NCBI GenBank assembly: GCA_014871385.1
Contig: CM026432.1
Coordinates: 8,114,825-8,178,824, forward strand
Direction of reading: 5' to 3'
Source: Ceratodon purpureus
Taxonomy: Eukaryota; Streptophyta; Bryopsida; Pseudoditrichales; Ditrichaceae
DNA: 64,000 nt
Both the position numbers and the translations under genes were made by a program. The notes below the pieces were generated by a model. It had not been told where the DNA came from and did no database searches. It worked only from the letters and a program-made list of their open reading frames with translations. Positions 9,137 through 60,909 of the stretch are shown one piece after another (the stretch's first letter is position 1; the number at the start of each line of letters is the position of its first letter).

Positions 9137-9869
9137 CAAAATGTTAATCTGGGTTAGTGACATGGAGAGAACTGAGATCAGGAGAGCCGTGGAATAGTGA
9201 AGGAAGGGGGATCTTCTCTTGAGGGACTGTCGATGAGTAGAGTGACTGCTCTCACTTAGTCTAATAGAGGGGAAGTGACCGGTGACCGGTGGTCACGGTC
9301 GCCCTAGTCTAAAGTGCTCTACAGGGAGGTGGTCCGAGACTGACCCTGGTTCTGTATCGATGTTGAAGTCATGGATAACTTGGGGTGGGAGAGTGAGGGG
9401 CCGGCCACAGTTGGACCCTGGTTACTTAGTTGGTGAGGGCAGAGGTCGAGGGGAGAGAGAGGGTTTCGAGAGTCAGCAACCAAGCATTCAAAGGACAGTA
9501 CACTATAATGCCAAGAACACAATGTATGTGACTAACAAAAGAGAACGGCCATGGAGTCCAAGTTCAGGAGGCGCAGGCAGAGAGTACAAGGAATCCCTAA
9601 ACGGGGACTCAACCACAAAATGAGAGAGTGAGTATCGATCCAGTCTTCTACTCTTTCTATACTGTGTGATCCTACTTTCTAGTGCTAACTCCTAGTTCTG
9701 CCGTTCTAGTCTTCAGTGTCTTGTGTTTCCTTGGCTGCCTCGGTGATGCCGCTCCTTTGCTGAGCTGTCCTTGGTTGCCGAGGAGTCAGGCAACAGATGG
9801 TTTACTAGAAATATATGAAAAAGTACAAGGTAGGTCGAACCACCCTAAACGAACATCATGCGAATAACA
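9137..9869 (-). mobile_element. candidate LTR of the truncated gypsy element
   Basis: Read on the minus strand, the sequence next to gag is AACATTTTGGCGACCATGCT, the usual layout of an LTR 3' end (..TTAACA) followed by a primer-binding region. On the plus strand the LTR would begin TGTTAATCTGG at 9137; ATAACA at about 9869 is a possible other end, giving roughly 730 bp. The partner LTR is missing because the element is truncated, so the outer boundary is inferred only. Confidence 0.5.
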
Positions 9870-10480
9870 AGAAATGGACACAACGGATATGCTGGGCAAA
9901 CTTATATTATATATATGTGTGGAAATAAAATTTAGGTCGACACTCCTTAAATGTTGAATCCGTGATAGGCCCTTACAGACCTGTACAAACATTCAAGTTG
10001 TTCGACCAACATAGCTGCCTACACTTTCCACAATATGATATGCAATCAAAGAACATACGGACTTCAGTATAGTCCCATGCCAACAAATGTATGTTATCGG
10101 CTCTACTTTAGAAATCCAAACTAGGAACTTCAACGCTAGATGTCGTTTAGGTCGCCTCGACCTAAACGGCTGGTATGTGGCAGTACATATGATATAGAAT
10201 CAACGGTTTAGGGTACTAAGTAAAAATCTACAAGAAGAACTATAGGTGACCTGTTGGTATTCTGCACTCGTAAAGTACGAACTTCAACGCCAAATGTAGT
10301 TTAGGTCGCCTCGACCTAAACTGCTGCCTATAATGTGGTACAGATGATAAATAAGGAATGGACTGAAACACTTGAGTAGTGTTCCCTCCAACAAAATATA
10401 TGTAATTTGCTAGTATTCAAAACATAAACACGCTAGAACTAATACGCTAGAACTCATTAGGTCGACTCGAGCTAAACATC
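9828..10480. repeat. AGGTCGA-type palindromes and 155-bp tandem repeat
   Basis: This lies 3' of the transposase-like gene. Near-palindromes with TTTAGGTCG arms occur at 10145-10167 and 10298-10322 (both have CCT at the centre). A hybrid site (left arm AGGTCGA, right arm TCGAGCTAAAC) is at 10456-10477. Decayed half-sites are near 9829 and 9931. The first two sit in tandem units of about 155 bp that also share GAACTTCAACGC before the site and a GTACA-containing stretch after it. Confidence 0.7.
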
Positions 10481-10609
10481 TACCTTTGTCTAGAAAACAT
10501 AATGTTGGATGAAATGGACGAATGAAATTCAGTTCAGTCGTCTTCAAACTATTATAAGTGATCTGACTAAATTCAGAACTTCAAGACTACCAACTTCAAA
10601 GCTACATGT

Positions 10610-13448
10610 TTATTCAGAATCCAGAGAAACAAATCTCTCCAAGGAGGCCTTTATAATGTCCAGTTGTTTGAGTGGAATCTTCAGCATTGGATCCTTGCCA
10701 AGCCCCCAGTCGTTGACATTTTTTTTAACTTTTGATTTCCAAGCTGTTATGACTGCATCAATACTCTGCCACGACTCGGGTACATCCTTCTCAACTGTCC
10801 AACAAAGTCTCCCATCCACATCCCATCCGGTATAGAATTTCAAAACATTTTCATGTCCGGAAATTGGACGGTAGAACTCTACTTGGATCGTGTTCGGGAG
10901 GTCAAGGTTCGAATTAGGGTCAATCAAGGCCCTCGCAAGCCAGAAAGGACAATTGTCTTCATCGCAGGGTCGTAATGCTAAGAAGTACCCTGCAAAAAGG
11001 TCTCGCGCAACACGGACTGACGGTCCTGGGCGATCTTGTTTGTGACCAACAAAGTGATCATCCTCTGCGAACTCCTCGCGCAAAGTTCCATCTTCCTGAA
11101 ACTCGTCTTCGACGGAATGAGCGAGCCGAGTGGATGGCCAAAAACCATGCTCCAAGGTGGGGACTGCATCAAAAGGGATGGAAAGAGCCTCTTTAACATC
11201 GTTCCAATAGTATAAGAGGGGCTCATAGATTCTTCTGGACTGGATTGAATCAGAAGATAGCCTCTCCCAATGATCTACAAAACCCGACAAGCCCTTAATC
11301 ACATCAGGCAGGTGCCGCATCTTGCGAGGCGCCACGGCACCAAAAACACCACAGGGCCATAAAGATCGACCTTCTGAATCCTCCTTCCACAACTTAATGC
11401 CACAACCATCTCCTTTTGGCAACCAGTCGTCGTCGTGACAGAAGATTTTATACTTCATGACTGGGCATCCTAAAGAATCTACATAGAATTTGAACTGATG
11501 AGCTTTAGTGTGACCCATTAACGTATCGTCGCCATCAAGCATCCACTCCGTGATGAATTTCTTGAAATCTGGGACCTCCTGAATGAGATGAGGAATTGTT
11601 GGTACAACTTCATTTTTCATGAAGGACTTCATGAGGAGAGGTACTGTGGGGAAGTCCTCCCTCCGCAAAGCCATGCTCCATCGCCCAAAAAGGGCATCAA
11701 TATCGTCATGAGTATGGCCGACTAGCATGAAGTTCACGTACACTTCGCGAAACACCCGCTTCGCGACTAATAGGGACCAGAATGAAAATACAAATCTATT
11801 CTTGTTATCGTTGACAGCGTTATCCATTTGGACGTTAAGAATGGGAGGCAAGGGTTTAGCAGCAACAGGAACCTCAGAAGGAGGGCCAAGAGGATCCAAA
11901 CACATCTCTGAACCATGCAAAAGCGCGGCATACAATAGGTGAGACAGATTTTCTTGAAAGAGTTCCCTGGAGGTGGATTTAGGAGGTGACTCAAGATCTC
12001 GAAGGAGCTTCGCAAACGATCCAACCGTGTAATTAGCGTCGTGTGAGTAAATGTCAAGGCCATAATGGGCGTAACGCTGATCCACATGCCCATGAGCAAG
12101 CATTCCCGTGACAGCGAGAGGAAGCTTCATGAGACCGTCTAAGTGTTTGACCTTGTGGGATAAGGCCGGCGATGCTGTCTTGGAGTGGTCCATCTTGTCA
12201 TGCATAATTGTAAGAACTTCATGAGGAGTAGCCTTCGACCTGAATCAATTTAGGTAGTACAAGTCCCTATGCGCCATTGCAGAGTCATTGTGCAGCCTCA
12301 TTTTCTTAGACCATAACAGGGACGCCTGAGATCCTGTTGACGTCAACTTCTTCTGGGACTGGAACTCATCACATTTTGAGCAACGAGCGAAGTTGTCTCC
12401 TGCCCGTTTGGCGTAATATTCTGGATAGCTAAGCCTCCTGATCTTGCTCAAGTTAGAAGCGGACATAGGAGGCAATCCACAGTCCGCTAGATGTTCATTG
12501 AGGATCGGAATCTGTTCCTTCCATTTGAAACTGGAAGGCAGAACTTTAGCAACAACTGTCTCCCCTGAAGGCAGAACACGACTCTTGTGAGGCATGTGGT
12601 CGGCATGCCTGTCAAGGATGGCCCCTAGGACGGCAGTTGCTACCACTGTGTGATTTCTAGGTTTACGTAAACCAGAATTACCGTGAAATTGAGCTTCGAA
12701 ACCAGCAGCAGCATACTTGGCATTTCTATAAAATATACTGGAGCTCACTCCCATAATCTTCATCCAGGCGAAGGGGCAAACATCTATGCCCTCCAGAGTC
12801 ACCACACTCCTCCCCACTGAATTCTTGTGAATCTGTCTATGCACGTCGAGTTTTATGTGGTTACGGAATTGCACTGTGGTCTTGTCGTACATACGCGACC
12901 GTAGAGTAGAGATTTTATCTTCGGGATAGTGTTGGACGCACAGCTGAGCGCAGCACGTGTTTGCCGCTACAGAGTTGATTGATGGCTGGGTCATCAAAAA
13001 CTCAGCGTGACGTGATATAGGTGGGGCGGGTATTCCTAGAGGAGTTGTCATACAATCGGGTACGATCTCCCAGGGATCGGTTACGCTCCGCAACCCAACG
13101 GTTATAAACATCACGTTGACTATGGTGCTCTAGGTTAACTCCATCCAGATAGACGTGGCTGATAGGCCACTTTTTGAAGGAGTACCTCCAATCATCCTCT
13201 AACTCTTCTTCGACTAACAAACGTGATACCTGGACGACGACAACGGGATCACCAAGGGGGCCAACCGTGTCAGATACCAAGCTGGACCGTGGGTTCCGGA
13301 TCAAACCCTCTGCTAATGGGATATTGTCGTCACTGTAAATTGTTACAGTCTTGTTTTGCCACAATCTTGAGGGTACAACCACAAAGTCTGGAAGGTCTGG
13401 GTTTAAGGGCGCTTCGACCGGAACGTCGTCATCTGAGGAGTAAACCAT
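10610..13448 (-). pseudogene. DDE-like transposase (DUF7869-type), broken
   Basis: Three open blocks on one strand belong together. Block 1 starts at ATG 13448 and block 2 (13114-12245) is in another frame overlapping it, so an indel or a missed intron separates them. Block 2 holds CPFAWMKIMGVSSSIFYRNA, a HGNSG motif and a CSKCDEF Cys pair. An in-frame TGA at 12245-12247 interrupts the frame before block 3 (12244-10610); CGA (Arg) would fit there. Block 3 holds QMDNAVNDNKNRFVF and VGHTHDDIDALFGRW, the hallmark blocks of the DUF7869 family found in transposon-like genes of plants and other eukaryotes. These resemble the second and third catalytic regions of RNase-H-fold transposases. Its 5' flank has AGCTCGA palindromes and its 3' flank AGGTCGA ones, so it may act on them; that is inference. 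Confidence 0.7.
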
Positions 13449-13540
13449 TGTACCTCGAATGCAATAGATCCAATTTTATGAGAACATATTATACTCCTTG
13501 AAGATAATTCATCTACAAGTTAGAGAACTTAACCCAGGCG

Positions 13541-13661
13541 CAGTTTAGCTCGACTCGAGCTAAACTGTGCCTCGACTATGGACAGTGCAGTTTAGCTCGA
13601 GTCGAGCTAAATTGCTGCTGCCCTTTGGATGCAGCAGTTTAGCTCGACTCGTGCTAAACTG
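13541..13661. repeat. three AGCTCGA palindromes at 47-bp spacing
   Basis: Sites at 13541-13567, 13588-13614 and 13635-13661 each consist of CAGTTTAGCTCGA, one central base (C, G, C) and the complementary arm; the third has one mismatch. The first is a perfect 27-bp odd palindrome. Starts are exactly 47 bp apart. They lie about 90-210 bp upstream of the transposase-like start codon. Confidence 0.85.
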
Positions 13662-13669
13662 CAGTCCGC

Positions 13670-14255
13670 AAAAACCGACGCTTTAATAGGTGCTCACATC
13701 GTCGGAATTCAGAGTCGCAGACTCAGAGTACGCTGACGGTTTCCGCTCTCAAACGTTTCCAAGTAGTAAAGAGAGACACTGCTATTACACCAAGAATTGC
13801 AACAATCGCAAGCATAGAACAACCAAAAATCAATGATGTGTGCTCATGATCGGAGAAAACTAAAGAGAAGACGTACAAGAGAAACGGCGCAATACAGCTT
13901 TCGCCCAGAAAACAACGACCTCCAAGTGAGCGCCGAGAGCTCCTACACGCGAGAGAAGCAAGTGAGTAGAGAAAAGACTTCGAGCGGGGACGATTCTAGA
14001 GGTCATTCTCTAACGTGTGGCCGTTTTCATGCCGCTTCAGTTTTGAAAATAGGCGGGAATCATGCATGACCATTCGTCCCTCCACATTTGGAGGTGTGAG
14101 CAAGCACGGGAAATACAACTTTCCATACTTCTCGGCCCTTTAGATAGATGCAGATGCGAAATATTTGGTGCATTAATTGTATCAAATGGGATGGGTTGGA
14201 CACGTCGTAGCGCCAGACAGAATGTTGACTTTTGGCCCCGAACTTATCATCTTCT
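13670..14255. other. no gene supported
   Basis: GC-moderate DNA between the palindromes and the telomere-like repeats. Short open frames exist (for example 13833-14069), but their basic, low-complexity translation gives no support for coding. Confidence 0.4.
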
Positions 14256-14256
14256 A

Positions 14257-14405
14257 TCAGGGTTCAGGGTTTAGGGTATAGGGTTCAAGGTTTAGGGTAT
14301 AGGGTTCAAGGTTTAGGGTATAGGGTTCAAGGTTTAGGGTATAGGGTTCAGGGTTAAAGGTTTAGGGTCTTAGGTCCAGGGTTAAGGATTTAGGGTACAG
14401 TGTTT
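14257..14405 (+). repeat. interstitial telomere-like repeats
   Basis: Degenerate copies of the plant telomere unit TTTAGGG are arranged as a 21-bp higher-order unit, GGTTTAGGGTATAGGGTTCAA, repeated about four times and then fading out. It is internal rather than terminal, since ordinary sequence follows on both sides. Confidence 0.85.
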
Positions 14406-14807
14406 AGGCATTTCTAGGGATATTAAATATCTCGTATATGGAATAAAATTAAATCAAAAATTGTTTGAACCTATTTGAATTTCGTGAGTAAGGTTCATAC
14501 AGGGAAGTACATCGTTGCAAATGTTCATATCTCCATGTACTAGAGTATGTATTTTTGCTCAATTTCATTATTATATATGATGTATGAAATCAAATCATTA
14601 TATATGAGTTCATGAATAGTTCTTGATAGACCTAGGTAGATATATTTTTAAATCTAGAATTATTTCTTTATTCTAAATATTTAGTCAGATATAATTATCA
14701 TGTATATATATTCATGTATGTTTATTTATGTCTTTATTTATTTCATAATGTGTTCATTACGCCGTGAATGGTGTAGATTTGTTTTTTCGTTTCTGGAATT
14801 CTATATC

Positions 14808-17010
14808 TTATCATTATATTCTTAAAATACATGTTAGTATCATAATATGTATAATATAATAATATATTATAGTATACTAAGGTACTAATATATTCATTTA
14901 CAATTTTATATTCAATTAAGAATAGTACAAGAATAATAAACTATATTCAAGTATATACAAATCTTAAAATGATATACAAATATATTCAAGTATGTATACG
15001 AAATACATTGTTAAAAATAATAGTATTAAATTATAGAATTCAATTCATTTATTATGGCAAATTATTTACATTTTTTAGAAGATTGAATTTTTTATATTTA
15101 ATCATGAGAAGCAAATATTTAAACCATGGTATGCCTTGTATGATTGGCATGTAAAATACATAAATCTTAATCAATTCAGTAACGTTCTACCTTGACTAAT
15201 ATTCGTACAATTTTATTACATTCTAATAAGAAAGTGGAATATTTGGTTCATTCATATAATTTTAAAAAACAAAATTTATAATTCATGGATTCAAACGCAA
15301 CGTCTTAAATCAATGATCATAACTATATATGTAGTATTAATATATGATATCAAGAAAGGCTCTAGATGCTTGTGCAAGCATACAATCCCATTAATCAATT
15401 CTTTAATAATAAATTAAAATGTCACATTTAAGTAAATCCGGACTTTCAAAAGTCCACATCGGTCAAAGTCTTGTTTCCGAGTCTGTCAAAGTCCCCTTCG
15501 TTACTCTGGAACATTCGGCTTTTTGCCCGAACCCCTTCATAAGCATAAGTTCCTTTGTGCGACAAAACAATTGTTCCATTCTTAGTTTCCCTTCTATTTC
15601 ATCTGCTTCTAGTTCATTTGCCGTGATGAGGAGGGCGGGCGGTGGTTTTAGGGTGTCAAGTTACCCGCCAGACGAGTGGGAGGTGGTTGTTTCCCCACAA
15701 GGAGTGAAGGAGCTTCGTCCGTGGTTTATGGCGGTGGAACGCGCCCGTGGTCGCGGCGTAGCCATTCCCGCGTAGAACCGCATTGCACGCCTAATGCAGC
15801 CAGGTGTGGAGTGGGATTGGACTCTTGCACATACTCCAGAGCAAATGGAGATTATGAACGCTTCCAACATCAAGTTTCCCCTCACCTCCGGCGAGGTCTT
15901 CTCTATGGCTGATTCTAATGAGGAGGGGAGCGGGAATTTGGGGAGCCCACCACATGAGTGACGAAGGTGAAATGTTATCTCCTCGTAACCCTTAACCTCG
16001 CCCTTAGTTTGATGTTTTCATAGTAATAGATTACGGTTGCTGTATGTATTGCGCAGAATTCCATTGCCTGATGTTGAGTTCGTGGTGAGTGTCAAGAGGA
16101 TGAGTCCTTCCTTTTGACCTGCACTTTTTGGTTTAAAACCCTAAACATCATACCATTTGATCCTCTTTTTCTCTTTGCTCCTGAACTTGCAGGCATCTTC
16201 GATATACTCCTACGGTTTAACTTATTGCTGCTAATCAGCTCAGATATGGGAAGGGCACTTCAGCAAGTAGTTAGCAGGACCGTTATATCATACGATATTT
16301 GGCAACCATAGATGTAAAAACAGATCACTTTCATCTTTTGGTAACTCTCGCCGATGGTGTCCCCCGTGTGGGTTGTAAACTATTTATGGAATGGAATGCC
16401 TTCAAAACAGGGTTGATTTGAATAAAAAACAGAGTTTCATTTGATGCTTTCATATTTGTATATTTCGTATTCTAATATTTCCATGCTTTATAATAAATTT
16501 AGTAGTAAATTTTGTTTGATTCCATGAATTATGAATTTTGTTTTTTAAAATTATATGAATGAACCAAATATTCCACTTTCTTATTAGAATGTAATAGAAT
16601 TGTACGAATATTAGTCAAGGTAGAACGTTACTGAATTGATTGAGGTTTATGTAATTTCCATGCCAATCATACAAGGCATACCATGGTTTAAGTATTTGCT
16701 TCTTATGATTAAATATTAAAAATTCAATCTTCTAAAAAATGTAAATAATTTGCTATAACAAATGAATTGAATTTTATAATTTAATACTATTATTTTTAAC
16801 AATGTACTTTGTCTATATACTTGAATATACTTGTATATCATTTTAAGATTTGTATATATTAGAATAGAGTTTATTATTCTCGTACTATTCTTAATTGAAT
16901 ATTAAATTGTTAATGAATATATGAGTAACTTAGTATACCACAATATATTATTATATTATACATAAGTTATTATACTAACGTGTATTTTAAGAATAATACG
17001 ATGATAACAT
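14808..17010. mobile_element. foldback element with ~490-bp inverted arms
   Basis: The left arm (about 14808-15298) and right arm (about 16518-17010) are inverted copies at roughly 90% identity by eye. They share long runs such as GAACCAAATATTCCACTTTC. Between them lie about 1.2 kb containing an ORF (15419-15961). Both arms are very AT-rich. The DNA to about 17520 carries further partial copies of the arm sequence. This is the layout of a foldback or long-TIR DNA transposon. Target-site duplications were not identified. Confidence 0.75.
15419..15961 (+). pseudogene. ORF inside foldback element, one in-frame TAG
   Basis: A frame open from 15419 meets TAG at 15773-15775 and then continues open, in the same frame, to TGA at 15959-15961. 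A likely start is the ATG of MRRAGGGFRVSSYPPDEWEV at about 15625. After the stop the frame reads on as NRIARLMQPGVEWDW and an acidic, Gly/Ser-rich tail. CAG (Gln) would restore the frame at the TAG. I do not recognise the family. It is the only candidate gene within the inverted arms. Confidence 0.45.
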
Positions 17011-17790
17011 TTACGTAAATATGTACTCAATTAGAGTATAGTAAATTAATTTTCATTACTAATAGTGTATTCATATTTGATGCTTTCGTTATAAAATTAC
17101 AAACTATTATTTAAACTCTAATCTTGTGAATTCAAATTAATTTCGTCTTTGAACAAATATAAACTTCATATATTTGAAAGGATTATTATGTTAATTAAAT
17201 TTGTAGACGTCTCATATTCAATTAATATTAATAAAGTTAAAATATACGCATGAACCAAATATTCCACTTTTTTGTGATAAAGTAATAAAATTGTTCGAAT
17301 ATTTGCTTCTTATGAATATTCAGAAAAAGTAGAACATTTGCTACTCATGAATATTTCTAATTTCGTACAAATTAAGTTTCTCTAATAAGAAGCTAATTCG
17401 TACAAAAATATTAGATTCTCATGAATATATTATGAAAGTAGTATATTTGCACCTTATTAGATAGTAATGAATATTTACGAAATTTTAAATATTTGCTTCT
17501 CATGAATATATATAGAAATTTCAATTCTCTAAAAATTGTTAATAAATTGCCTAATTAGATTTTGTGCTTGCTCAAGTGTCTATACCATTCCACAATATCA
17601 TATATTAATACTACAACAATGATGACCATTGATGTAAGAGGATTCATTTGAATCCATAAAATGATGATTTTATTTTTGGAATACATACAAAAGAGTAAGG
17701 AAATTAAGTTCGGTCTATATATTTGAAAAATGCGAAAAATTATTGGTTGAACCAAGGTTAAAATTACAAGTTAAAAAAATATAATAAAAA
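17011..17790. other. AT-rich flank with partial arm copies
   Basis: Very AT-rich. Short pieces related to the foldback arms (AATATTTGCTTCT(T/C)ATGAATAT) recur several times to about 17520. No gene is seen. Confidence 0.5.
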
Positions 17791-17794
17791 TTTT

Positions 17795-18060
17795 AACCTG
17801 CGGGGACGGGGCATCGAACCCCGCGGTGACGGGGCCCCACGATTTTGCGGCGCGGTCACTGGCCCCCGCGAGGGCGAGGAACAGTCCCCCCGCAGACCCT
17901 GTCCACGCAGTTGGTTCTCTTTTGCATCTCTGTGTCTGCGGTGTTTTTGCGCTGGTTTTGGTGGTGGCGGGAATTCATTTCCTTTGAGGTATCGTGTAAG
18001 TGAGAGATTGGTATCGCGCGAGTTCCGGGGGTATACTCAAGCATTTGAGCGCCTTGAATT
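17795..18060. other. abrupt GC-rich tract
   Basis: Composition changes sharply from AT-rich to GC-rich (CTGCGGGGACGGGGC and its neighbours, with locally inverted CGGGG/CCCCG pieces). It may be the left edge or promoter of the plus-strand unit that carries the palindrome array. No coding frame is supported. Confidence 0.35.
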
Positions 18061-18539
18061 AGTTTGCTTCCTTCCAGAGAGTGTGCGCCTTCTTTGTTTG
18101 GAGTAGTTTCGGGTTAGGGTTTAGTTGTATCTTCATGGTTTGGAGTCTATTTGCGCGGAGGTTGTTTGAGGTGTTCTTTGATTGGGTTTTGAGCTTGTTC
18201 GAGGGTTTGTACATAGCTTTTTAAGGTGTTTCGTGACTAGGCTGTTCCTGGTTCTTTAGGGTTTAGTTGTTTCGTGTTTTATTCTTCCTCTACGGACTTC
18301 CTTGACGGTGTATTAAGGAGTCCAATTCGGCTTTGGGTTGTTGGAGGCGAGAATCACGATGCAGAAGAAGTCTCAGGTGCGTATCAAAGTCGACATTACT
18401 CGTTTTTGGTTTTTTTCAGTTCAATTCCAGTGACTTTTGCAATTTAGCATCTTCTCAATTGAGCTTTTTCGTTTTTTTTTGCTTCAATTATAATTCTTTT
18501 GCATGTTCTCGCTAGTCTAGGATTAGCATCTTGTATTTT

Positions 18540-18765
18540 TTTTAACAAATTCTGAATTGTGTGTGTCTGTTTCCGTTCGTACTCTTTATGTGTTATGTGT
18601 GTCTCTGTCTGTGGTAGAATTCTGTCTTGTTTTTGTATTCTGTGTGTGTCTGTTTGTGTTCGAATTCTGAATTGTGTTCGTCTTCTGTGTGTGTCTGTTC
18701 GGTTTTGAATTCTGAATTCTATTCGTTTTTTGTATGTGTGTGTATGTTTGTGATTTAATGTGTGG
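18540..18765 (+). repeat. TG-rich degenerate tandem repeat
   Basis: Copies of TTCTGTGTGTGTCTGTT followed by GAATTCTGAATT recur with a spacing of about 45 bp. The repeat lies in intron-like T-rich DNA upstream of the palindrome array. Confidence 0.5.
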
Positions 18766-19171
18766 TTCTCTACAGGTTTGTGTCAGTGCATGTGTGCATC
18801 ATAAGATGGTTGCAATAGCATATTCCTTCTATTGTGTATTACATATCAATGTCATTTGCATTGTGTTGTAGTTTCAACATAGGTTTATTTGGATATTTAT
18901 AGTTACAGTCGCCTTAGTATGTGAGTATTGGGCTTATTGGAAGCACTTTATTTGATTGTCTTCCGCCTATTCCGGAACGAGTGTGATAGGATGTGAAACC
19001 TTTGAATCAGTCTCGGATTCGTGTTCTGACCATTCAAAATGCCTTCTTTTCTGTAGGCACAACACGTTTTTGGCTTTCAGCAGATTCACAACGGAGGGAT
19101 TTGAGTAAAAATGGCCGACAGGTACTAAATATTTCTGCAAATTGTGTAATCAATCTCTCAGAAATCAAGAA

Positions 19172-19785
19172 CAGTTTAGCTCGAGTCGAGCTAAACTGCT
19201 TGCAGAAGACAACTATCGCTTGACAGTTAAGCTCGACTCGAGCTAAACTCACATCTACCATGTATAAAAGAAGAATAAAAAACATAAAGTACTTCAAAAT
19301 TAGTTCATTAATTGCTACAGTTTAGCTCGACTCAAGCTAAAGTGTAGCCAAATGCTATTTTGACCACTCACAGTTTAGCTCGAATCGAACTAAACCGCAG
19401 TGTACAAAGTGGCTTTTGGCTACAGTTTAGCTCGAGTCGAGCTAAACTTCTGAGATTTAGAAGGAAGAACTTAAAGTTTAGCTCGAGTCAAGCTAAACTG
19501 TAGGTGTAACTCCTGAAATCTACCCGGGAGATCCACCTACAGTTTAGCTCGACTCGAGCTAAACTGTGAGTGGTCCTTTCTGAAGCCCAAGCGGTTTAGC
19601 TCGGATCGAGCTAAACTGCTTGGGGGCCATGCTGGGAGCTGTGCTGTTTAGCTCGACTCGAGCTAAACTGCACAGCTCCCAGTAAAGCCCTCAAGTAGTC
19701 TAGCTCGAGTCGAGCTAAACTGCTGGGATCTCATGTGTTATATATTGTAATTGAACCACCATTTAGCTCGAATCGAGCTAAATGG
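19172..19785. repeat. phased array of 11 AGCTCGA palindromes
   Basis: Site starts (27-bp sites) are at about 19172, 19224, 19318, 19371, 19423, 19474, 19540, 19592, 19644, 19696 and 19759. Each is TTTAGCTCGA, one central base and the complement, usually flanked by CAG/CTG. Most intervals are 51-53 bp; the exceptions are 94, 66 and 63. Spacers are not one repeated sequence, but several are related by inversion: GACCACTCACAG left of the 19371 site matches, inverted, the right flank of the 19540 site, and TTTGGCTAC/GTAGCCAAA flank the 19423 and 19318 sites. The array lies directly upstream of the gene starting near 19825. Confidence 0.9.
19632..19682. repeat. 51-bp extended palindrome
   Basis: At this array member the symmetry extends beyond the core. 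Arms of 25 bp (CTGGGAGCTGTGC plus the core arm) surround one central C, with a single mismatch. It could extrude as a cruciform. The neighbouring 19592 site is also extended, through CCCAAGC on both sides. Confidence 0.85.
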
Positions 19786-21291
19786 TTTTGAATTTGTCTA
19801 ATGTTAAGCGTCTCCTCCTTGCAGTGAGGAGAAAGCAAGGGTACTTGAGGCGCTACAGCATTTTTCAAGCCTGTTCCTAACTCTGATTCGGATGACGATG
19901 ATGGGGATGACTCAAGAACATTTGAGGCTTGGACCTTCAAAGACCCCTCGAAGGTCAAAAATTGGACATTGCGATGGGTTGCACACACCCCATATCTAAC
20001 CTTCGCTACCATTTTCAAGGGTGAAGTCCAAGATCCCCTGGTCATCGACATGGAAACAAAGGTCACCGAGTTCGACCATAAGGAGAAAGAGATGATAAAG
20101 ATCCTCTGCTCATCTATGGGGAATAATCCATACCTCTTCACCATAGTAGTCGACGTAGCAGAAAACCTCTTTGACCCGATTTTCCTAATGGAAAGTCTAT
20201 CGAATTTATGCTTCGATGAGATAGAGAAGACATTGAGGCAAGAAGTACTAGACAAGAAGTGGGCAACAAAAGATGGACGTACTCTCCAGGCAAAGTCCCT
20301 AGCTTGGAAACTGAGGAATGTTGTCAGCAGCCTTACGCTCGCCGCAACGGAGGCAAAGGTTAGGCTAACCCTGGGAAAATCTCATATAGACGTTTCTGGA
20401 GTGACAGCAACCCGGAGCCAAATGGGGAGCCAACAGACCGGACGCAGTAGGGGCAGAGCAATAGTTCCTTCGCAAAGCCAGGCCGCTTTTGCAACTCCCA
20501 CACCCCTCTCACCATTGAAGAAGAAAGGCCTCGAGAAGAAGATTGACAAGCCGAAGCCCAAAAAGGACTTGCTCTTATCTGCGGAGGACCTAGCAACAAG
20601 TTTAAACTCTGTTCTCGTGGAACTTCCGAAGGTGAACAAGGTTGGAGAGGTCATGGACTTCGATAGTGTCAATCAAATTTACTAGGGTTTCTTCGCTGAT
20701 TGCCAGGAGGAGTTCGTCTTCAAAACGGATGGGCAACCAAAGAAGATTAGTGTGGACGTGACGCGGTGCAAGCCCGCGCCGGCCCATTGGACTATCTGTG
20801 CATATGAAAAGCGGGGCATGGAGGAGATGAAGAATTACTTGATCAACATGCCGGATAGGACACAGAAACAAACCCTGTGTGTGATGCCAGATACGGCTGC
20901 AAGACCCCGACAAGAAGATGATCTAAGGGGCTGTACATTCTGGATCATCAACGGACAACACAGCATTGCGGCGTCCAAATCACTCATCGAGGATAACGCC
21001 AGTGAGGAGTTGGTGAGGGACTTCAGGAGGTGGGACGCGTACATCGTTTGGACCCATGATTATGATAAGCTGCGGAAGATCTCAGCATTCTATAATCGAG
21101 TGAACCATCTGGCACCCTTTAAGCCAACCTGGGCGAGCAATATCATTGCCGCGAGGACAGTGTGGAAGAAGTATGGTAAGCCGCAACCAAAACATGCTGC
21201 CGCAGGTGCAACCGAGTCTAGGACTACAGGTCTGAAAAGAAATCCAGCCTTGAAGACGTACGACGTAAGTTCACTGACTCATTAGCATTAG

Positions 21292-21417
21292 CACTTTAGC
21301 TCGACTCGAGCTAAACTGCTTGGAGTTTAGCTCGAGTCGAGCTAAATTTATATAATCTTCTTTGTTTTCAATGATCTCGTATATCTAACACACTTTAGCT
21401 CGACTCGAGCTAAAGTG
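21292..21417. repeat. three intronic AGCTCGA palindromes
   Basis: Sites at 21292-21318, 21323-21349 and 21391-21417 lie within the 198-bp intron 21265-21462. The last is a perfect 27-bp odd palindrome beginning CACTTTAGCTCGA. Here the outer bases are CAC/GTG rather than CAG/CTG. Confidence 0.85.
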
Positions 21418-22849
21418 AACTGCGTGAAAGCATCATCTAAGGTAGTTCCTGTGTGTCTGTAGAACTTTGTGGAAGCAATCAGGGAGCGCTTTGCAATGAT
21501 TGATGTGGCCAAGCATCAAGCCGTGGTGGCGAAGAAGGGAGGGAAAAACACTATCTCCCTGACAAACGAGCTGAAGATCATCACATCCAGTGATGAAACC
21601 TAGGACCTGTGGAAGGAGATGATCGCGTCTGCGGCATGTGGTGGACTTATAGATCCCGACACCGAAGAACCTCATAAGAAATTTCATGAGAAGAAGGGGT
21701 TCGTTCCAGACAAGGATGGAACGCTTCCGAGGGAGTTCTTCAAATGGCTCGGGAACTTATCGGAGGCGGATCACCAGAGGCTCTGTAAGCACATCCTGCA
21801 TAAGTCTGGGCCAAGTCGGAAGTACACATATCCGAAGGTTGTCATTAAGGAGAACACGAATGTATTGGAGGACTGCTACACGGTCAAGGAGTGGGTAGAG
21901 CAGAGAAAACGTAAGGCTGTAGCTCAGGCGGAGCTTAACAAGATTAAACCGACCCTACATCTAATCAAGAGAGGCGTCCTCGATGTACCGGCTTAGAAGC
22001 ATTTCAAGAAGGCTTACCATGTCTCCAAGGAGTCCAAGCACGTTCTGCTTGATTGGGGTATTCCGGACTCATACTGGACTAACTCCAGAGCTACACAGTA
22101 TCGCAACCAGTCCGCCAAGGATCTCTCTCCATATGCGGTTGAGTTCTTTAGAAACTTCCTTCAGGTTCGAGATGGGTTTCAGAGTCCATCAGCTCAGATG
22201 TGGTTTCTCCCATTCATCAGGGAGCCTCGACTTGCCTTCGGATCTTGGCCCTCCGATGTATGGAGGTGTTGGTGCAACGCTCTCACATTGGGAATCATCG
22301 ACTTCCGGTTCCTCCCAACCTACAAGACGAGGCATAACTACACTTTGGACAACCCGTTCTTCATGGTGTTTTTCCATATGATCGATGACTATGGACAGCC
22401 CTACTTCAACGATGTTCGGCACTGGCTTCTGATTTGCAGAGACGATGAGGACTTCGCCTAGGTGCTAACGTGGGTGGAGCGTAGCACCTTGAGTGGTCGC
22501 AGAAAAGTCAATTCTGAATATTTCCCTGCTCCAAACGAGCGACTCGGTGGTCACCTCCCAAAGAGGAGAATCGCGTTGGAACCCGTCAAACTCATGTTTC
22601 TCATTGATGATAATTTACTTGAGAACGAAGTGTCAACGCCAGAACCTCTGAGCGAGTACAGAACGACGGATCACCCACTGTACAAGGACAATAGGAAGTT
22701 CAACAAAAGGAAGTACTCGCTGTATGCATCGGAGTTAAGGATGGAGTTCTACCTGCAGGTCCACGACACTTTCTGCAAATACGGGGGGGCTGTGTATCAG
22801 CTCTATGGTGGAACGAAGCCCCTACTGGCTGCCACGGTAAGTGTTTCTA

Positions 22850-22945
22850 CACTTTAGCTCGAGTCGAGTTAAATCGTTCTACTGTTTTGATTCTATGGAC
22901 CGTGTATGCATACACTTCTACACTTTAGCTTGAGTCGACCTAAAC
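22850..22945. repeat. two intronic palindromes, one hybrid
   Basis: These lie in intron 22837-22975. Site 22850-22876 has AGCTCGA arms with a decayed right arm. Site 22921-22945 pairs a left arm CTTTAGCTTGA with a right arm TCGACCTAAAC, so it mixes the two half-site types. Confidence 0.75.
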
Positions 22946-24018
22946 CTTGTTTACCTTGCCTTCGATTTTTTTCAGATGCTCTCAATCTTGGCTTTTGTCG
23001 TCGCGGATGATAGTGACTCAGCTAATATGATCGAAGCCTAGTCACTTGTTTTGACTCTGGACCCAATCGATTTTAATGTCGACGCATATTATGTCGATAA
23101 GGAACGCTTTCCGGAATACGGCAGAGCTGTGCGGAAAGGGAAAGGCAGAGCTCTGGAGGAGGGTGACGATGTAGAACTAGAAGAGGATGCCCCTACCGAA
23201 GAACAAACCCCCTCCTCCAGTGCTGCAGACATTAGCAATGAGGGCGATGCTCCGCCTTCAGATCCGGTGAGTCAGACAACATCTGAAGGTGGAGTGGAGA
23301 GAAGACTCGATTTCCCTGAGTTTGACATTACGCGTACGGACGAAGAGAGACCGAGTTTTGCACCGGAGCTGGGATCAGGAAGTGGGGGAAAGACTGGTGG
23401 TGGGCGAAGTACTGGGAAACAGACACAGAAGAAAAAGAGGGTCAACCCACCAGCACGGCAAGCCTCCCCGTTGGGGAGAGCCGCTCCCTCTCCGGATATT
23501 CAAGCTCTTCTGGCAGAATTGCAGGCGTCCAGGGATAGGGAGAAAGACTTAGTAGATAGGATGGCGAAGCAGAGCATGGATATAGAGAGGACCGTGCAGG
23601 CGGCACAGCACGGTGCTCACTGCTCTGCAAGGCATCGGTAATGCCGCTATTTTCCGGAATGCGGGTCCACTTCTGCCCAACGTCCAGCCGATAGGTAGTG
23701 CCCCGCCTACTTCGCAAGTACTAGAGATTTTGGGCTCCCCTACTGGTGGAGCGAAATTGCCAGAGTCGGATCCGAGTCCTGCATCAGTGCCTGAGCCAAG
23801 CCATCATTGCACCGACCAGGTCATGCGTGACCCTAGTCCGAGCCCACCTCGTTCTCCCTCCCACAATCAGACTCAAAGAGATGCTCCTGAGACATCTTCA
23901 GGTCCCTCCCAAACTTAGATTTTTTGAACTCAAAATTTTGTAGATGAGGTGTTAATACCGGAGTAGTTCACTGAAATGTGCATTTTGTACCAAAGCGACT
24001 GTAATTAATACAAATGGG

Positions 24019-24045
24019 CTATTTAGCTCGACTCGAGCTAAACTG
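24019..24045. repeat. AGCTCGA palindrome between blocks
   Basis: The site has arms ATTTAGCTCGA and TCGAGCTAAACT around a central C. It lies in non-coding DNA between the end of the NGQHS frame at 23918 and the next exon near 24120. Confidence 0.8.
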
Positions 24046-24113
24046 TTCAACATTTTTACCAATCCTTTCTATGTCAGCTTCATTGATCACTCTCTGATGA
24101 TTCTATAGTTCTC

Positions 24114-25293
24114 TTGCAATGCCCAGGTCAGGAAGTACATGAGGAAGTGGACGATCTTCCGATCATGGATGATGTTGTCATGGCCCAAACTGCGGATGTG
24201 CCTGTACGCACAAATATGGATTTAGATGTCACGGCCCAATGTGCTCTTACCTTGCCACTGTGCGTAGAGGTCATTCCTGACGATCAACCTCAGGATTCAT
24301 TAGGGTCGATGGGTCCTGTGGAGGATCGTGATGTTGTAGAAGAACAAGCCAAGGATGTTCAGGTATTTCATCCATCATTATATCTCGTTCCACTGTTTTC
24401 TTGGGTACTAACTTGCCCTGCAACTGTCCTCATTGTATCATTCGTATAACTCCGTCCTAGTATAATATAGTAATGTCCATTTGTCATTGGTATTTCCTCT
24501 CCAGGTGCGCGAGGCATCTGGATGTGACGTAAGTTCTAGTGAAGAATTGAGTCCTGTCCCGACGCGACCTCAGAGTGGTTGGTTGAACGTTGTCCCCGAC
24601 CTCAATGGAATACTCTGCTCCAATACTCCTAAGTGGCCTGGACAATCATTCGTTAGCCATGACCTTAACATCTACTCAGCGTCCAAGCCAGCAGTCGTCG
24701 GCTCCAAGCTTGTTTGTGTCAGGCCCAATTGTGCTGATTTCCTTCGTCGGTTGTCAACGTTCGCAACCACAACCGTCTGGAGTTCGATGAAGACTTCAAC
24801 GACAAAAATGATCTGCGACTATCTGTTCGGTCCGATTTGTCCTATCTATCCGCTCAGAATTCTAGGTCAAGTGGACTGTCAGAGAGTTCCTATGGGCGTT
24901 GATTTTCGAGGTCGCCCGGTATATATGAAGGAACCCGGGACTCAGAAGGACATCTTCCTTAAGCCGATGTCTGATGGTCTCTTTCGTAAATTTGGTGGCC
25001 TATATTCCAAAGCCAACACCATTTTTATCGACGACAGCCCAATCAAGCACTGTCAGAATAATTCTCACAATGTCCTTTTACTCTCCACTTGGAACAACCA
25101 AAAACCGAATGCCGCAGATGATAGTTTTTTGTTGTCAAAACTTTTGCCATATCTTGTAGACCTACACCACTTTGTAGTGACAATCGCTAGATTTAGGGCC
25201 GAGCGTCCGATCAGAAAGAAAATGTATTATGATGACCGTTCTACCTTTGAACAATACGCTAAGATTAACAAGGCAATTAGTCGTAGAGCATAA
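24114..25293 (+). CDS. NIF/FCP1-type HAD phosphatase-like protein
   Basis: Exon 24114-24362 is acidic and ends at GATGTTCAG with donor GTATTT. After an intron ending CTCTCCAG, exon 24505-25293 continues in phase 0. The second exon shows a HAD/NIF fold: WLNVVPDLNGILCSNTP (motif I, in the DLNG form seen in plant members, where the second Asp is Asn), RPNCADFLRRLSTFATTTVWSS (motif II region), and NTIFIDDSPIKH (motif III, with the DD pair). Such domains dephosphorylate Ser/Thr, for example on the RNA polymerase II tail, but the D-to-N change makes activity uncertain. The start is unclear: ATG 24119 or an acceptor at GGTCAG. It ends in TAA, with no internal stop. It sits inside the palindrome-marked unit, so it may be a captured host gene. 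Confidence 0.6.
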
Positions 25294-25503
25294 TTAGGCA
25301 TGTTTTCGGTTCTCTAATTTGTTAATAGACATTTTTGAACAACCGCGAAGCTATTAGTATACTGTACATCTTAACTAATTGCGTAATCATTGTATCGAGA
25401 CTACTCCTTTTGTAATACGAAGTTTATTTTTCTTTCTTAATCTATTCTGCCCCTTGCGACGAACCCTAAACCATTGCTGAATTATTGGGGGATGTATGTT
25501 TCC

Positions 25504-26374
25504 ATTCGCTTTATGTATTGCAGGATAATGCATGTCGAGCCTCAGTGGATTCTTTGAATAATGCTTATGGCTGCGGGCCTTCTCTGCGTAGCAAAGCGCT
25601 TCTGTTGCAATCGGTTGCAACAGCACAGTCCACGATGGACTATTCAACTATGGCTGTCGACGAAGGGGTTGTGGACAGCCCGGTTAACCTGTCCATCCCC
25701 AAGACCCTAAAATCCCCTTCTCCTATGTGGCCACGGACCGTACTGCCGGTTGTATCTCCGAAACGACAGAGTTCTACCCCTACGAAGCGTGTTCTTTATA
25801 ACAATGTGGAGGACATGCCGTCACCACCACCGGCTAAGGTTAGTTTTCATTCTTGACTATTAGCTTTTCATTCCTTTCTGATTTTTCGTTCATGTAAGTG
25901 GGTTAAGTGATGGTAGCTGCTCGCATCTGTTTCTTGCCTCCTTTATGTCTTTAGTTTAGCTCGAAGCCACCTTAAATGATTGATCTTTTTCTACTTTCAT
26001 CTAGGTTCGTGCTACCTTATGTCGGCTTCTTCTTTCAAGGTCCGTTCGACCTTTACACTTGCACTCAGAAGTTTAGGTCGATTCGACCTAAACCGAAATC
26101 TCTTCCCAATGCTAATTTATCCCCTTTGCGGATGCCGAGGCTATGATCAACAACTACAGGATCCGGGGCAAGGAAGTCCGGCGACTCCCATTCTAAACCA
26201 TCCAGTACTCGTCGCCACTCTTTGCCAGAGTCAAGCATTGGTGACAGGCGTAGACAGAATTTGCAACGTCTTCTTGATAGTCCAATGATGCAGGTCGAGG
26301 GAATGTCGTGGACACATCAGCGTCAACGGGAATTTGTGAAGTCAAGAATTGAGGCTTATGGAGGGACTCCATAA
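25504..26374 (+). CDS. basic C-terminal ORF, two exons (partial model)
   Basis: Exon 25504-25837 follows a TATTGCAG acceptor and ends at PPPAK before GTTAGT. A 3' exon from about 26160 (ACAACTACAG acceptor) reads GSGARKSGDSHSKPSSTRR, then RRRQNLQRLLDSPM and EFVKSRIEAYGGTP, ending in TAA at 26372-26374. A polyadenylation-like AATAAAA follows near 26470. The intron holds two palindromes. No start is visible, so this could be the 3' part of the neighbouring HAD gene through alternative splicing, or a separate gene. The family is not recognised. The protein is Ser/Arg-rich and probably disordered. Confidence 0.4.
25952..26093. repeat. two palindromes: decayed hybrid, then AGGTCGA
   Basis: Site 25952-25978 is decayed: left TTTAGCTCGA, right CACCTTAAA. 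Site 26071-26093 is a perfect 23-bp odd palindrome with GTTTAGGTCGA arms around T. Both lie in the last intron of the 25504-26374 model. Confidence 0.75.
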
Positions 26375-26677
26375 CCATATAGAGGATAGTATGTACTGTA
26401 TAGCAATGGCGCAGACAATGTAGACAATTATAAGAGTCGTCTGTGTTATTTCATTGTAATTATGTTTCGAATAAAACGATTGATCTTTGTGTCAAATTTT
26501 CTTGTCTGCTATTTTTGCCTCATTGTCTTGCATACTTTTTGTGTTATTCAAATTTCCGAATGTAATTTATGTGATTGGACATTGCCTTTTATTAAAACCT
26601 TGGTTTAGAAAGGTAACGGATAGTTATTACTATAAATACAAAAAACGTGGTATACTCTTTTTTCTTGTTTTTATTGC

Positions 26678-26815
26678 GTTTAGGTGTGATCGACCTAAAT
26701 GACATAATCATCATCTCTCTTTAAACATGTTTTTAACGAATCATTGAACATTATTAAGTTCTCTACTGTATGTTCGTGCATTTAGGTCCACTCGACCTAA
26801 ATGACATAGGCCTCA
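26678..26815. repeat. two AGGTCGA-type palindromes, 3' flank
   Basis: Sites at 26679-26699 (left arm decayed) and 26781-26801 (one mismatch) share TCGACCTAAATGACATA on their right and a related TTTAAA(C/G)TGTTTTTAA(C/T)GA stretch after it, so they lie in tandem units of about 100 bp. They mark the right end of the palindrome zone in this window. Confidence 0.8.
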
Positions 26816-27184
26816 TTGTTCCTTTAAAGTGTTTTTAATGATTCAATATTGATTTACGCAAGATTGAAGTAAATGGGAAAGCACGAATGCGGCCATTTCT
26901 CTACACGTTGATTTCCCAAATTCAAGAATATTTCCCAAAATAACAAATATGGTGTTTCTTCCTCAACGTGCGCATGGTGCCTGATGAGATGTCTGAAGAG
27001 TCTGCGACATGTATTCCGGCGGGGGTAGCTGTAACCGTCAATGTCCGGGTTGTGGGGGAAGGGGTGAGTGCCCGGTCCGGAACCACTCGGGTACGTCCGG
27101 GTGGAGACCGGGTAGTTCCCTACTCTGTTCCGGCCGGCTCTCCCTGATGTACCGAACTCGCAACATTCTCGATTGTTGGGGTAG

Positions 27185-59646: not shown

Positions 59647-60829
59647 CTAAGGTTGACCAAATATTCCTGGGTAGTCAGAACATTTTAAAAATCTGCCACA
59701 AATCTTCTCTTTCGCTACATTACTTTCATACATAGTAAATTCAAAAATAAGGGGAGAAAGCAATGCAAGAAATGCGAAAGACCCAATAATGAATAAACAT
59801 ATTTTTAAAGCCTCCCAACCTGTGGTCTTGAGAAAAGCCAAAACCATCTGTGGGAGCATCTGCAAAACCAAGAGTACATGTTAGCATTCTACATAACTGT
59901 AAATGTGAAAGATGAAGAAGCCGAATTAAATCAAAAGCAATAAAACACTTGGTTGATCAAACTCAATCACTAATTACATACTGTAGAAACTTTAAAACAT
60001 GTTGATGGAGAAACCATGTAAATTGAAATCAACACACAATTGCATGGATGGATGGTTTGATTACCTGATCTCTGAGCTGCACATGCTTGTCCAAAATGGT
60101 GCAAGCAGTGGCCACAACCTCCTTCCGGTAAGCCACTTCTCCAAGAGCCTCACTGAACTCAAGTCCATTCCTCCCATCAAGGTCTCGCAGAGCTTCCTTC
60201 CACACATCAACTTGGATTCTAGGATCCTCCTGTGCCCATTCACTCCATCTCCGGAACCACTCTTCTCTCCTCTTCACATCGCCAAATTGCTTGCATGTGA
60301 TGCCCAAAAACAAGGGCAGGATTGTGCACTTGCCAGTCTGCACAAAGGCACCGAGTTCCAACATGGGCCACTTACTCCGGGTGAAATACTCCTCCGACAC
60401 CACCACAATTGCTAGTGGACATTGCCGTGCAGCTTGGAAGATGAGTTGGGCGAATTTCTCCCCCTTGGGCAGGCTGTCCGGGCGCTTGTCGAAGAAAGGA
60501 ACCTGTTTGGCTCGTTCTAGATCCTCGCAGAGCTGCTCCACAAAGCCTTTTTGAGCCCCGCTGTGGCTCAAAAACATGGTGTGCTTGGTCTTCAACTGCA
60601 CAGTGTCCCAGTTCGACTCTAGCTTCTTAACATGCAACCATGGCTCCTGGTCCAGTTCCTCAGAGGAGTCCGCTTCGATATCGACAGATTTGGAGACTGC
60701 CTCTAGGTTCGTGCTATGCAGTAATGGCTCCTGTTCCTGTACCTCATGGGACACCGCTTCTGGATCTACAGATTTGGATGCAGAGGGGGGTTCCAGTGGC
60801 ACCGATTCAATGTCTATACAGTTGGACAT
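59647..60829 (-). CDS. TIR-domain protein with C-terminal membrane segment
   Basis: Exon 1 is 60829-60065 (ATG at 60827-60829) and exon 2 is 59859-59647. The donor after CAG (GTAATC) and the TTTGCAG acceptor join in phase 0, giving 325 residues. Residues 18-73 hold a 28-residue tandem duplication (SKSVD.EA... twice). The TIR domain spans about 82-200: TMFLSHSGAQKGFVEQLCED, BB-loop-like RPDSLPKGEKF, LAIVVVSEEYF and SKWPMLELGAF. E158 sits where plant TIRs keep their catalytic NADase glutamate. Exon 2 adds WEALKICLFIIGSFAFLALL and more, one or two membrane helices. No NB-ARC or LRR is present, so this is a short TIR-TM protein rather than a full receptor. It ends in TAG. It probably acts in immune or cell-death signalling at a membrane. 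Confidence 0.8.
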
Positions 60830-60909
60830 TGAAGTAGACAGCAACAACACTGTGCAGAGCGACGATATTCCAGGCGAGAGGATTAAATGATAGCGAGAAA
60901 AACAGACCT

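Follow-up and report, generated by a model that had tools for sequence, protein, structure and literature searches.

Palindromic sites in the non-coding parts of a multi-copy moss DNA transposon, possible docking sites for an element-encoded protein with a predicted ParB fold

The window analysed here is a stretch of 64,000 nucleotides from the moss Ceratodon purpureus (GenBank assembly GCA_014871385.1, contig CM026432.1, positions 8,114,825 to 8,178,824 of the forward strand), and within it lies a decayed copy of a DNA transposon, about 18 kb long, of which the genome has many copies. The two main genes of this element, which are divergently oriented, encode a predicted transposase with the DUF7869 domain and a ParB-like (NGQHS) protein, and members of a single family of palindromes lie around both genes and inside two introns. 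The principal features are the following (strand is given where the feature has one).

9799 to 26956: transposon copy, colinear with the full-length C5 copy, left end (~170 bp) missing
9829 to 10476: palindromes 3' of the DUF7869 gene, starting at 9829 (degenerate), 9931, 10146, 10300 and 10456, mostly G-type, TTTAGGTCGA
10613 to 13475, minus strand: DUF7869 gene, predicted DDE-like transposase (Pfam PF25273, E 1e-42), broken in the window
13544 to 13658: array of 3 palindromes with 47-bp spacing, upstream of the DUF7869 gene (8 in the C5 copy)
19175 to 19782: array of 11 palindromes, mostly with 51-53-bp spacing, upstream of the ParB-like gene
19849 to 21264, plus strand: first exon of the ParB-like (NGQHS) gene, to the extent that its frame is open; homologs have Q at the in-frame TAG at 20683
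21265 to 21462, plus strand: intron 1 (GTAAGT...TGTAG), palindromes at 21295, 21326 and 21394
21463 to 22836, plus strand: exon 2, in-frame TAGs at 21601, 21994 and 22459 where the closest homologs have W, W and Q
22837 to 22975, plus strand: intron 2 (GTAAGT...TTTCAG), palindromes at 22853 and 22924
22976 to 23919, plus strand: putative exon 3, in-frame TAG at 23039
24022 to 24042: palindrome between open frames
25955 to 26801: palindromes towards the right end, at 25955, 26072, 26679 and 26781, mostly G-type
26930 to 26956, minus strand: 27-bp terminal inverted repeat of the right end, differing at 2 positions from that of the other copies

Each palindrome is 21 bp long and consists of the arm TTTAG[C/G]TCGA, a single central base, which is mostly C or G, and the mirrored arm. 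With either C or G accepted at position 6 of the arm (C-type and G-type sites), TTTAGSTCGANTCGASCTAAA matches the window exactly at 12 sites, at 25 sites with no more than 1 mismatch, at 27 with no more than 3 and at 28 with no more than 4; an extra degenerate site with 5 mismatches starts at 9829, and an unbiased palindrome scan of the window recovers most of the same sites. The 28 sites span 9931-26801 and are grouped in eight clusters, and the assigned exons of the two main genes (four stretches that make up 6.6 of the 16.9 kb) contain none of them. The sites are real and far above chance: in 100 dinucleotide-preserving shuffles, no site with 3 or fewer mismatches appeared, and at 4 mismatches the mean was 0.12 and the maximum 2. 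The original prediction, made from the sequence of the window, held that there are more than 20 sites of one design, many of them perfect and not attributable to chance, with none outside about 9.8-26.8 kb. All of this is borne out, given that 12 of the 28 sites are perfect palindromes and that no half-site with at most 1 mismatch occurs in the window outside 9800-26830; the predicted block is real and is slightly longer than proposed, with homology to the full-length copy over 9799-26956. Searches of the window against Rfam and for tRNAs gave no match. Within the array upstream of the ParB-like gene, the spacers at 19540-19727 are partly inverted copies of one another, with arms of 70-80 nt and 75-84% identity.

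The window copy and the C5 copy are colinear over the whole block except for about 17.1-19.4 kb, over which alignment is limited to short pieces, and the C5 copy, read from end to end, retains the gene order of the window. It is bounded by a 27-bp terminal inverted repeat, AACACCATATTCGTTATTTTGGGAGAT, perfect at both ends and with AAGA on either side. In three of five further copies, both ends were recovered; they carry the same perfect repeats, and the duplications are ATTT, TTGT and AAAT. The other two show, in the stretch fetched, the right end only and neither end, respectively. The terminal repeat is thus present without mismatch at both ends of 4 of the 6 copies examined, and a 4-bp target site duplication accompanies all 4 copies with both ends; these full-length copies measure 17,562, 18,492, 18,938 and 18,507 bp. 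The terminal repeats, which differ in sequence from the palindromes, the target duplications and the many copies support the earlier claim that the palindromes mark a mobile block. In the window, homology ends at 9799, beside a frame with a retrotransposon gag match, and the left repeat is missing; a search at the edges of the block found no terminal repeats besides the palindromes.

The DUF7869 gene of the window copy is interrupted by an in-frame TGA at 12245-12247 and by a frame change near 13.0-13.1 kb, and 35 of the 48 listed copies are free of stops. A model predicted from 56 sequences (55 of the 120 listed homologs plus the moss-like locus L014, described below) aligns to Mos1 from residue 189 onward. 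A search of the literature library for DUF7869 returned no paper. The analysis gives this uncharacterised Pfam domain an identity as the predicted transposase of an element with 27-bp ends and 4-bp duplications.

For the ParB-like protein, both introns were assigned by splice signals and homologs, and a model built from 37 of the 54 listed homologs, which covers the exon 1 part, is predicted to adopt a ParB-CTPase fold; sequence searches of solved structures gave no useful match. The C5 copy is full length and not fully open: exon 2 can be aligned over its whole length, with gaps at 2 positions, and the frame ends early. We rejected recoding of the in-frame TAGs, because open copies exist and C-to-T or G-to-A changes explain the stops: the closest homologs have Q, W, W and Q at four of these codons and R at the TGA of the DUF7869 gene, in a comparison that took in all the listed stops except 23039. 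The stops at 12245, 20683, 21601, 21994 and 22459 are C-to-T or G-to-A changes, as expected from the decay of methylated cytosines. One public protein, P0127, joins the ParB-like exon 1 to a reversed DUF7869 stretch and is either a product of rearrangement or a chimera created in assembly.

The placement of the sites was compared in the 30 highest-scoring of the 85 ParB-like loci listed for the genome (518 candidates). Palindromic sites are close to the ParB-like gene in all 30, and in each of them 2-13 sites precede exon 1, none lies within it and 3 follow it (4 in one locus); 336 of the 390 sites are exact, and the array spacings cluster at 52-54 bp. The sites of intron 1 are better conserved than the remainder of that intron, and in 26 of the 30 loci the reading frame of exon 1 continues beyond the donor and terminates at a TAG or TAA within the intron. 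The C5 copy has 32 sites with at most 4 mismatches, of which 8 are upstream of the DUF7869 gene and 10 upstream of the ParB-like gene; introns 1 and 2 contain 3 and 2 sites, respectively, and the others lie between genes and towards both ends. No palindrome was found outside the element in the rest of the window or in the ~8 kb beside the C5 copy.

Read in frame, a palindrome leaves the peptide FSSxRAK or LARxELN, so that public proteins could be examined for sites near the donor, the only ones accessible in this way. Of 54 exon 1 homologs, 26 were readable past the donor; the other 28, some of which also have the peptide, were set aside because they were too short or had no anchor; the intron 1 peptide (score of at least 5 out of 7) is present in 21 of the 26, compared with a shuffle mean of 1.5 and a maximum of 7. 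Among 65 exon 2 homologs, 30 were readable and 22 carry the intron 2 peptide (shuffle mean 1.7, maximum 6). The layout is kept in relatives with only 30-40% protein identity, and the sites recur over roughly 30-80%; the fit to the motif drops with protein identity for intron 2 (rho 0.51, p 0.004), and the corresponding relation for intron 1 is not significant (rho 0.31, p 0.13). One of the 120 DUF7869 homologs fetched, P0060, contains two such peptides, both N-terminal to its region of alignment with the gene.

Further relatives came from four moss-like contigs (L014 and L051-L053) within a public bin labelled Synechococcales cyanobacterium, which we read as moss contamination. L014 has an open DUF7869 frame of 963 aa without introns, 69% identical in coding DNA, and retains the motif of the window upstream of it (0, 0 and 1 mismatch); outside the palindromes, a single 118-base piece of its flanks aligns with the window, spanning two sites. 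L051 and L052 carry TTCAGCTCGA-N-TCGAGCTGAA, with 7 sites at up to 2 mismatches upstream and at intron positions, and L053 carries a different palindrome, TTTATCCTCGA-N-TCGAGGATAAA, with 4 sites at up to 2 mismatches, 3 of them upstream and 1 at the end of exon 1. The common design and the CTCGA-N-TCGAG centre are shared by all three. The scan of genome contigs for the palindrome of the window gave 50 loci, namely L014 and 49 others (L001-L013, L015-L050), which we take to be Rhizobiales records. In these 49 loci (46 G-type, 2 C-type and 1 mixed), the 21 letters are embedded in longer hairpins with distinct flanking sequence, an Rfam search of three of the loci matched no family, and the likeness is probably due to chance. 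In viral contigs, neither an exact palindrome search nor protein-guided scans produced any match.

We regard it as practically certain that the palindromes are conserved sites of this element, and they are probably bound, as DNA, by a dimer that the element itself encodes. The explanation of the whole that we tentatively favour is that they are cis-elements at which the element's own ParB-fold dimer docks, keeping its genes active. Occurring repeatedly in introns, upstream regions and the remaining non-coding DNA, the palindromes would be family-specific recognition sites; a dimer of the predicted ParB-fold protein would bind the two half-sites and might spread from the arrays, and the binding would mark the element and protect the activity of its genes from silencing by the host. 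The chance that the ParB-like protein is the main binder appears about even, and an anti-silencing action as the main effect, argued by analogy, is a possibility to which we give somewhat less than that. This ParB-like self-recognition was chosen because the layout resembles that of VANC and VANDAL, the predicted ParB fold is encoded next to the sites and ParB-type proteins bind palindromes. The earlier suggestion of binding sites for a dimeric protein is accordingly the best-fitting reading, and one that we infer. A more far-reaching version, in which a plant transposon has a ParB-parS-like system whose ParB-fold protein loads at about 30 palindromes and coats the element, with protein and palindrome co-evolving so that each lineage protects only its own copies from silencing, seems to us unlikely.

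Among known systems, En/Spm encodes TNPA, a protein that binds repeated motifs of the element; these motifs are subterminal and shorter, whereas the moss sites are mostly internal and longer. The VANDAL elements are Mutator-like and have a Mutator-type transposase, and the moss transposase differs in this respect: at E<=10 in Pfam, protein P0001 matched DUF7869 alone, with no Mutator-type transposase, and the second protein is modelled with a ParB fold. A close functional parallel is provided by VANDAL in Arabidopsis, whose introns and upstream regions are described as carrying arrays of short motifs to which VANC anti-silencing proteins bind, with a variable repeat number and a motif that differs between related families (PMC5735166; PMC10398659). 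Arrays in non-coding parts that differ between families are likewise found in the moss element. The claim of the original prediction that known plant transposons lack such motifs overlooks VANDAL, although the VANC21 motif is described as 9 bp long, non-palindromic and in one orientation (PMC5735166, in part), compared with the odd 21-bp palindrome in moss. ParB-parS and KorB share with the moss system the predicted fold of one domain and palindromic sites near the gene. The operator OB of the plasmid protein KorB is given as TTTAGC(c/g)GCTAAA in the part of the report consulted (PMC2680271); it has a single central base, and its outer six letters are identical to those of the C-type site, which may be chance; KorB is also described as sliding. 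The moss protein differs from these in that it has no GxxR arginine and no match at the sequence level, and that its host has introns. VirB of Shigella, described as a ParB-family anti-silencer that works from its own DNA sites against H-NS, is a precedent for the relief of silencing by a ParB-related protein, bacterial and so an analogy only.

Several observations weigh against the favoured explanation. The arginine of the GxxR P-motif is replaced by S, N or I (GQHS or similar) and is found in none of the 37 modelled homologs, so CTP switching should not be assumed. No ParB match was obtained in a sequence profile search of the PDB or against NCBIfam, and Foldseek gave no match to the PDB at E<=1e-3 for the model, which represents the exon 1 part of the protein. 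The L014 sites stand beside DUF7869 alone, the four 3' ones being degenerate (2-5 mismatches), which makes the choice of binder a tentative one; the peptide is absent from 5 of the 26 readable homologs for intron 1 and 8 of the 30 for intron 2; and the count outside the element refers to the rest of the window and ~8 kb by the C5 copy only. Furthermore, the start of the Mos1 alignment at residue 189 implies that the transposase may carry a DNA-binding part of its own. The transposase is the main rival binder, and the view that the palindromes are its binding sites, used for synapsis or autoregulation, appears doubtful rather than improbable: in both the window and L014, sites are found on either side of the transposase gene, its model includes a part aligned with the DNA-binding region of Mos1, and G-type sites occur towards both ends of the window copy, whereas most sites are internal and far from the terminal repeats, these repeats are a different sequence, and the sites recur in the two introns of the other gene.

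That the palindromes act as RNA hairpins in transcripts, for example in the control of splicing, is quite improbable. In the window, sites lie 30 and 16 bases past the 5' splice sites of introns 1 and 2, although in homologs the short distance to the donor arises in part because the peptide test detects just such sites; some sites have longer outer stems, and the outer flanks near the core are more complementary than expected (58 versus 40, p 0.001), which speaks for hairpins. We analysed pairing in 35 sites (the 28 of the window and 7 of L014), with position 6 set aside. Of the 34 one-arm changes elsewhere, 27 break pairing, 7 give G-U pairs and none is compensated, and on balance recognition of DNA half-sites is favoured over hairpins; at position 6, the arms agree in 28 of the 35 sites, which together with the joint change of both arms in L051 and L052 is explicable by pairing and also counts against the DNA-binding explanation, whereas 6 sites mix C and G there. 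Arrays are also present upstream of the DUF7869 frame, which is intron-free and open in L014. A neutral satellite hitchhiking in the element would account for the variation of the upstream array from 2 to 13 sites and is very improbable, given that the sites are tied to gene and intron positions, unlike an ordinary head-to-tail satellite, recur in two introns and upstream across the range of protein identity given above, show stronger conservation than the remainder of intron 1, and differ in concert in each lineage. Least probable of all are sites of site-specific recombination or integration, the other proposal of the original prediction. The identical inverted sites, their mostly C or G centre and the mutually inverted spacers would fit, but no recombinase family is present among the frames scanned and the element is bounded by terminal repeats and 4-bp duplications; the proposal is left without support because the sites occupy conserved places upstream and in introns and the colinear C5 copy keeps the gene order.

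If the ParB-like self-recognition is true, sequence-specific recognition of a transposon by its own protein, as in VANC and VANDAL, would have evolved in another type of transposon, in a moss and through a ParB-fold protein; ParB-type DNA recognition would extend to a eukaryotic mobile element; and the arms race between transposons and silencing could be tested in a haploid plant that has numerous near-identical copies with open main frames. In the titles and abstract openings of the literature on moss, Ceratodon and Physcomitrium DDE transposons and on ParB with transposable elements, we found no description of the element.

The assembly comprises 362 Mb in 151 contigs, one of which, C6 (110,524,308 bases), contains the window and is presumably the V sex chromosome of C. 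purpureus. Among the copies listed, C6 holds 52 of the 85 ParB-like ones and 17 of the 48 DUF7869 ones; the contig accounts for 30% of the bases, so only the ParB-like copies are enriched on it. Two further features lie within the element.

14846 to 16964: AT-rich segment, also present in the C5 copy, whose 451-nt inverted arms are 94% complementary
24466 to 25290, plus strand: open frame with similarity to NIF/dullard-like phosphatases (PF03031, E 1.4e-10)

The C5 copy has a 275-aa frame at the place of the latter. Adjoining the AT-rich segment is a telomere-like 21-bp tandem repeat, AGGGTTCAAGGTTTAGGGTAT, at 14259-14413, and a TIR-domain frame lies towards the right side of the window, at 60032-60907.
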